A stretch of DNA of 39,496 bases, from positions 1 to 39,496 of IMG/VR virus record IMGVR_UViG_3300044639_000747, one strand, 5' to 3'. A program made the translations under genes and the position numbers. Source of the stretch: a virus. How positions within the stretch are numbered: position 1 is the stretch's first letter; each line of letters starts with the position of its first letter. This document shows, piece after piece, positions 3,266-3,281 of this stretch. A model generated the notes under the pieces. That model did no database searches. It had not been told where the DNA came from and saw only the letters and a program-made list of their open reading frames with translations.

Positions 3266-3281
3266 TGTTTCACGTGAAACC
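3266..3281. promoter_or_regulatory. parS: parS-like ParB-binding site
   Basis: TGTTTCACGTGAAACC contains the perfect 14-bp palindrome GTTTCACGTGAAAC, the core of the widely conserved chromosomal parS site (consensus TGTTTCACGTGAAACA, one outer mismatch here). Chance expectation of this 14-mer in 39 kb is about 0.00015. No ParA or ParB gene is visible in the phage, so host ParB is the likely binder. Confidence 0.85.

Follow-up and report, generated by a model that had tools for sequence, protein, structure and literature searches.

A host-type parS site upstream of terL in a phage with no detected ParB, and its probable loading of host ParB

The window, which is the whole 39,496-nucleotide stretch of IMG/VR virus record IMGVR_UViG_3300044639_000747 analyzed here, encodes a terminase, a portal, a major capsid protein, a DnaB-like helicase, a primase, RusA, a WhiB-like protein, a sigma-like factor, and a collagen-like tail protein. 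A 48-bp direct repeat common to both ends joins them, which makes a complete circular assembly probable. Two other reading frames are recorded here for their own sake. The gene at 200-1462 (minus strand) gives a weak amidoligase match, just above the Pfam cut-off, and Alcaligenes phage QDWS535 also has an annotated putative amidoligase. A proteasome/HslV-like peptidase at 7418-7939 (plus strand) directly follows the portal gene and is perhaps a head maturation protease. The large terminase subunit (TerL) is 53% identical to that of Planktophila phage LanE43-AprE7 (E7) and 43-48% identical to those of the Streptomyces phages listed, which are mostly Beephvirinae among the records opened; these identities place the phage as kin of the 'Ca. 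Planktophila' phage E7 and of the Streptomyces Beephvirinae. A near-DNA search of window positions 1-25000 against named phages returned one match, covering 3% of the query, to OX376641.1 (probably phage F5), and a TerL query of bacterial genomes found no prophage. 'Ca. Planktophila', a member of the order Nanopelagicales, is reported in PMC10202952 as a host that both E7 and F5 infect and lyse. From this lysis and the kinship to E7 we therefore infer a host within Nanopelagicales, at the level of the order only.

Within the divergent gap that separates the leftward module from the rightward one, with a leftward gene on one side and terL on the other, the DNA reads GTTTCACGTGAAAC, a perfect 14-bp palindrome that agrees with the chromosomal parS core at all 14 positions. 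The 16-bp parS consensus is TGTTTCACGTGAAACA, and the 16-mer at 3266-3281 (T, core, C) agrees with it at 15 of 16 positions, the one departure being the 3' outer base, C at 3281 where the consensus has A. The site lies 473 bp upstream of terL (-473 to -460 relative to TerL), and a gap of 8 bp separates it from the operator CTGACGGTACCGTCAG on its left. The preliminary description had drawn attention to the parS core, to the operator 8 bp away, and to the position between two transcription modules, and all of these hold. Its chance expectation of about 0.00015 likewise agrees with our recomputed value of 1.7e-4 exact matches in 39.5 kb at 45% G+C, a figure that calls for a discount, since many different motifs may be sought in one reading. 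The exact copy is single: no second one occurs across the window at up to two mismatches, and allowing three adds just one match. The idea that the site is one copy of a multi-copy operator was rejected on this ground. Gene boundaries in Table 1 take the leftward gene to start at the ATG at 3040 (its longest ORF runs from 3070) and terL to start at 3740 (longest ORF from 3623). Two small ORFs run across the site, and a coding role for this region is unlikely because relatives carry indels of varied length there.

Table 1. Positions of the parS core and of the genes and elements discussed with it, in window coordinates
Feature	Position	Strand	Remark
Operator, exact copy	1387-1402		
Operator, 1 mismatch	1826-1841		14-bp perfect palindrome at 1827-1840
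Operator, 1 mismatch	2217-2232		
Operator, exact copy	2367-2382		
196-aa protein	2450-3040	-	First gene of leftward module; helix-turn-helix-like segment (by eye)
Divergent non-coding control region	3041-3739		Holds operator and parS
Putative counterpart, by TerL distance, of six kin terminal repeats	3060-3486		
16-bp palindromic operator CTGACGGTACCGTCAG	3243-3258		Half-sites change together in relatives
parS core GTTTCACGTGAAAC	3267-3280		Exact match; kept exactly in L002, L003, L007
65-bp block	3589-3653		Identical across the aligned window, L003, and L007; may be a late promoter region
Terminase large subunit	3740-5626	+	phrog_38, E 4.6e-63
WhiB-like regulator	38057-38458	-	PF02467, E 1.7e-9; actinophage marker
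Operator variant CTAACAGTACTGTTAG	38798-38813		
Operator, exact copy	38954-38969		

A degenerate form of the operator consensus finds 22 matches in the window when three mismatches are allowed, above every one of 100 shuffles. The 196-aa product of the first leftward gene, which gave no ParB match and no confident family match, is probably the operator-binding regulator, a candidacy that we propose because its putative recognition segment varies along with operator type among relatives. A KTIGRW-type segment (window, L003, L005, and L010) pairs with the operator CTGAC-RGTACY-GTCAG, and a (T/A)VSRY-type segment (L004, L007, and L009) pairs with CTAACAGTACTGTTAG; an operator of either type was not found in L011 or L206. 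Other short elements occur in the region. Window 3361-3374 is a 14-bp perfect palindrome, TACCCCTAGGGGTA, which also occurs in L007 and in none of the other relatives scanned for perfect palindromes upstream of terL. At the place of window 3259-3300, where parS would be, L016 carries a 9-bp inverted repeat (TTTACCAGG/CCTGGTAAA) and L009 carries a direct repeat of CACCTGGTA.

The claim that this phage encodes neither ParA nor ParB stood up to each search made. A profile search of the window record with ParB_N (PF02195), which may miss a divergent ParB, gave no match. Host proteins taken for ParA and ParB found nothing better than E 3 by tblastn against the window. Family scans with PHROGs for 50 predicted proteins, and with Pfam for 38 of these, left out a few small ORFs and named no ParA, ParB, integrase, or RepA. 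That a phage ParB was missed through a partial contig was rejected in view of the 48-bp end repeat. As for features of a phage-plasmid or extrachromosomal prophage, a primase and a DnaB-like helicase are present, as is a candidate regulator with its operators, and no RepA or integrase was named. Genes for ParA and ParB of the RedRock type were not found in the window by the same PF02195, tblastn, and 50-protein family searches; when centromere repeats of that type were sought in 2250-3800, the sole short direct-repeat array lay inside the 2450-3040 gene.

The set of relatives comprises 80 identified through TerL plus L206, 81 in all, of which ten near ones cover the place of parS. An exact site stands at the same place in three of the ten (L002, L003, and L007) and is missing from the other seven (L004, L005, L009, L010, L011, L016, and L206), at up to two mismatches in six of these and up to one mismatch in the seventh. 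When 50 of the 81 relatives were scanned with one mismatch allowed, matches came from the same three only. An IMG/VR search for parS followed by a conserved downstream element also found these three alone, though it may leave out the window's own record. Farther afield, no match at up to two mismatches was found in E7 or in seven Streptomyces kin phages (Abafar and six that are classed as Beephvirinae). When the window, L003, and L007 were aligned, a 20-nt block containing parS, AATGTTTCACGTGAAACCAA, proved wholly conserved, while three-way identity was 0.35 to its left and 0.60 to its right up to 3560, where further conserved blocks of 14-15 nt occur. The region is a mosaic among relatives. 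Absence from close relatives was the outcome that the preliminary description had named as telling against its proposal, and the result falls on both sides, with the site gone from seven of the ten and exact in three. Because so many covering relatives lack it, parS is an optional trait of the lineage, and it is kept exactly where it is present.

The distance from TerL also brings the ends of the packaged genome into the discussion. Exact direct terminal repeats of 253-396 bp lie just upstream of terL in all six linear Streptomyces kin genomes tested (L216, L218, L219, L221, L222, and L223; five Beephvirinae and Abafar). Together they span -678 to -254 from TerL, with -623 to -404 common to all six, and the window parS falls within this common stretch. 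The E7 record has no end repeat. Among relatives, 26 of 72 contigs end within 1 kb upstream of TerL, compared with 3 to 8 ends per further kilobase upstream and 5 to 12 per kilobase over the first five kilobases downstream; variation in the region upstream of TerL could break assemblies there and is an alternative cause of this crowding. One contig (G041) starts 752 bp upstream of TerL, and its first 216 bp recur, at 89% identity, at the opposite end; either a terminal repeat or an overlap from assembly could account for this. The other nine records whose ends were examined show overlaps of 22-157 bp in four cases and none in five, and terminal repeats are not demonstrated in the window's own lineage by these ten records. 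Together, these observations suggest that a terminal repeat may include the window parS or lie close to it.

A comparison with the parS of candidate hosts, which had been recommended as a check, was made at the level of the order: of 121 genomes from the likely host order, 118 hold the core with no more than one mismatch, compared with 36 of 121 for the reversed control. Exactly two matches occur in 92 of the 121, and the paired sites are about 0.6 kb apart among the matches listed. 'Ca. P. versatilis' (1.33 Mb) illustrates the arrangement. Of its two parS-like sites (one mismatch at most), one coincides with the start of a gene taken for parA by its Walker motif, the second lies about 0.6 kb upstream of it, and the gene that follows this presumed parA encodes ParB. 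A second Planktophila genome, a small metagenome assembly, gave no match. A ParB protein (TIGR00180) scores above cut-off in all 41 host-order genomes searched, with a single ParB match in 40 of them. All ten host-order ParB loci examined (L355-L364) have a parS-like site, and the motif was mapped beside parB in one host-order genome. Many of the host sites among the matches listed have the exact core with variable outer bases, and the C at 3281 is for this reason no strong objection to calling the window site parS. Outside the motif, the flanks of the window site differ by eye from those of the host sites examined.

Naturally occurring parS motifs also turn out to be common across viral records. 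The full consensus TGTTTCACGTGAAACA was found in at least 120 IMG/VR stretches as opposed to one for its reversed control, and a second form, TGTTCCACGTGGAACA, in at least 120 as opposed to none; the parS counts are lower bounds while the control searches ran to the end, and the controls are thin, with one palindrome per parS form whose dinucleotides differ from those of parS. The 14-mer search made no demand on the outer bases, and still 94 of 148 sites in the first 120 matching stretches have the outer T and A, where about 1 in 13 would be expected. Among the matches listed in that search, 17 of 120 stretches hold more than one site, and some viral contigs have up to six. Among the matches listed, 69 of 148 sites fall outside ORFs of at least 90 aa, compared with 19.9 expected. 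The strongly over-represented parS loci in IMG/VR are those filed as L081-L200, L369-L417, and L432 onward. The search for ParB_N covered 144 of the 169 viral loci with parS, in batches giving matches (E up to 1e-3) in 3 of 50, 4 of 50, and 0 of 47 records; three records were common to the first two batches, leaving 7 positives among 144 distinct records, 5 of which exceed the curated cut-off. No ParB_N match was found in the remaining 137, although many of these records are fragments in which a ParB may be off-contig, weakening each single absence. Where parS occurs together with a phrog_38 TerL, 19 of 23 records are without a ParB_N match.

One group accounts for 41 of the 169 parS-bearing loci, its members sharing proteins at about 50% mean identity and, where opened, carrying terminase or portal genes. 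For eight phages related to this group, 50-kb stretches were searched for parS at up to two mismatches. The cultured pelagiphage HTVC027P (L427, MN698241.1), a distant relative of this group, carries its exact parS (16413) outside the annotated genes, in the stretch that separates terS from terL. The cultured Alcaligenes phage QDWS535 (L430, OK172329.1) has GTTCCACGTGGAAC at 47935, a two-mismatch parS form with outer T and A that sits in a short annotated reading frame upstream of the terminase genes. ParB_N was not found in either phage, and neither annotated stretch lists a ParB. The six other phages related to the 41-locus group have no match at up to two mismatches. Across the 24 of 25 TerL-bearing records that could be used (QDWS535, with no exact parS, was left out), 13 have parS no more than 5 kb from TerL, compared with 5.9 expected at random placement (p = 0.001). 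With three members of the 41-locus group and HTVC027P removed, the count is 9 of 20 compared with 5.0 expected (p = 0.03); relatedness among the remaining records makes these p values too small. We propose orphan host-type parS, an exact parS with no ParB_N, as a group that takes in the window, the 137 viral records, and HTVC027P.

Taken from the sequence comparisons, the reading that we consider rather probable is that the window site is a real host-type parS that loads host ParB onto phage DNA. Three findings make it the best supported: ParB is present in the host order, usually along with two nearly identical parS sites; the exact site persists in some relatives despite divergence of its flanks; and viral contigs commonly carry parS with no ParB_N detected. 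Several observations count against it: the site is missing from most covering relatives, from E7, and from the seven Streptomyces kin phages, and the window has a single copy whose 3' outer base is C instead of A. Recruitment of host ParB had been put forward in the preliminary description, and it survives here with the qualification that the trait is optional. In the mechanism that we infer, host ParB would bind the phage parS, close as a CTP-dependent clamp, and spread along neighboring phage DNA. Binding, closing, and spreading are established ParB biology as covered by PMC12704722. Through host ParB, the phage would join host ParA and SMC, and its DNA would be held, placed, or partitioned in a small, slow-growing cell. 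Loading would occur near a genome end, beside terL. That positioning or partition is the purpose of the site is our tentative suggestion.

Known systems share parts of this proposal. Chromosomal ParABS, in which a CTP-dependent ParB clamp acts on parS, uses the same 14-bp motif in the likely host order, whereas the window site is on a phage, in a single copy, with no parA or parB found in cis. Plasmids were reportedly stabilized by chromosomal parS in Bacillus subtilis by Lin and Grossman in 1998. In that work the replicon was reportedly partitioned by host ParAB, as proposed here, but it was an engineered plasmid and not a phage. Phage-encoded ParABS is already known from the RedRock-type actinobacteriophages; according to PMC7157519, these are likewise actinophages with a centromere-like site, but they have their own ParA and ParB and arrays of an 8-bp repeat, whereas the window has neither gene and a site of the chromosomal type. 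A staphylococcal phage with ParB and without ParA is also described in PMC10286716. In the imaging phage of PMC8585504, a single parS engineered into P22 DNA gathers ParB in infected cells that supply the protein in trans, and parS-bound ParB is for this reason compatible with infection. The P22 system is engineered and relies on a plasmid-expressed ParB fusion, in contrast to the natural window site, which is matched to the likely host. Searches of the open-licence PMC literature, mostly at the level of titles and abstract openings, turned up no account of a phage that naturally carries a host-type parS without a ParB.

The main rivals to positioning or partition accept that ParB is bound and assign it a different task. 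One is a decoy, in which replicating phage DNA would titrate host ParB off a chromosome that has about two parS sites and so stop segregation or division. The two sites in most host-order genomes and the single ParB match in nearly all of those searched are what such a phage would exploit; a decoy would profit from several sites, though, and the window has one where other viral contigs have up to six. We regard this as unlikely, and we judge the same of control of transcription, in which ParB loaded at parS would spread over the divergent control region and help the operator to silence or time early and late genes. The position of parS in a divergent gap, 8 bp from an operator and between the two modules, is what one would expect for such a role, but L004, L005, L009, and L010 keep the operator without parS. 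Nor is viral parS enriched in divergent gaps, which hold 12 of 83 classified intergenic sites compared with 21% of intergenic bases, a result that counts mildly against a general promoter-silencing role.

Two further explanations do without ParB. The site could be an unused relic or a chance match, captured for example from a host chromosome by recombination. Its polymorphism within the lineage and the mosaic nature of the region fit this idea, but the small number of matches expected in the window, the exact preservation amid diverged flanks, the dissimilarity of those flanks to host sites, and the enrichment of parS in viral records make it quite improbable. Less probable still is that some other regulator, of phage or host, has a parS-like palindromic target here. 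The region does have further palindromes, the operator and TACCCCTAGGGGTA at 3361 among them, yet the site equals the motif found beside ParB in the host order, and a second copy at up to two mismatches is lacking in the window. Loading of host ParB stays the reading that we favor for the site itself.

More speculatively, orphan host-type parS might be a widespread phage strategy, a possibility that we raise with considerable reserve. Unrelated tailed phages would carry one to several sites near terminase genes and genome ends, host ParB clamps would load on incoming or replicating DNA, and the phage DNA would in this way be placed, organized, or protected, with the window as a case from the abundant freshwater Nanopelagicales. 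The enrichment of parS in viral sequences makes this idea testable in cultured phages such as HTVC027P. A phage with a host centromere site alone would depend on the segregation protein of its host. Such dependence would link infection with the biology of the chromosome, and it suggests a point at which defense and counter-defense could act. Given how unexpectedly common parS is in viral sequences, many phages may use the segregation machinery of their hosts.
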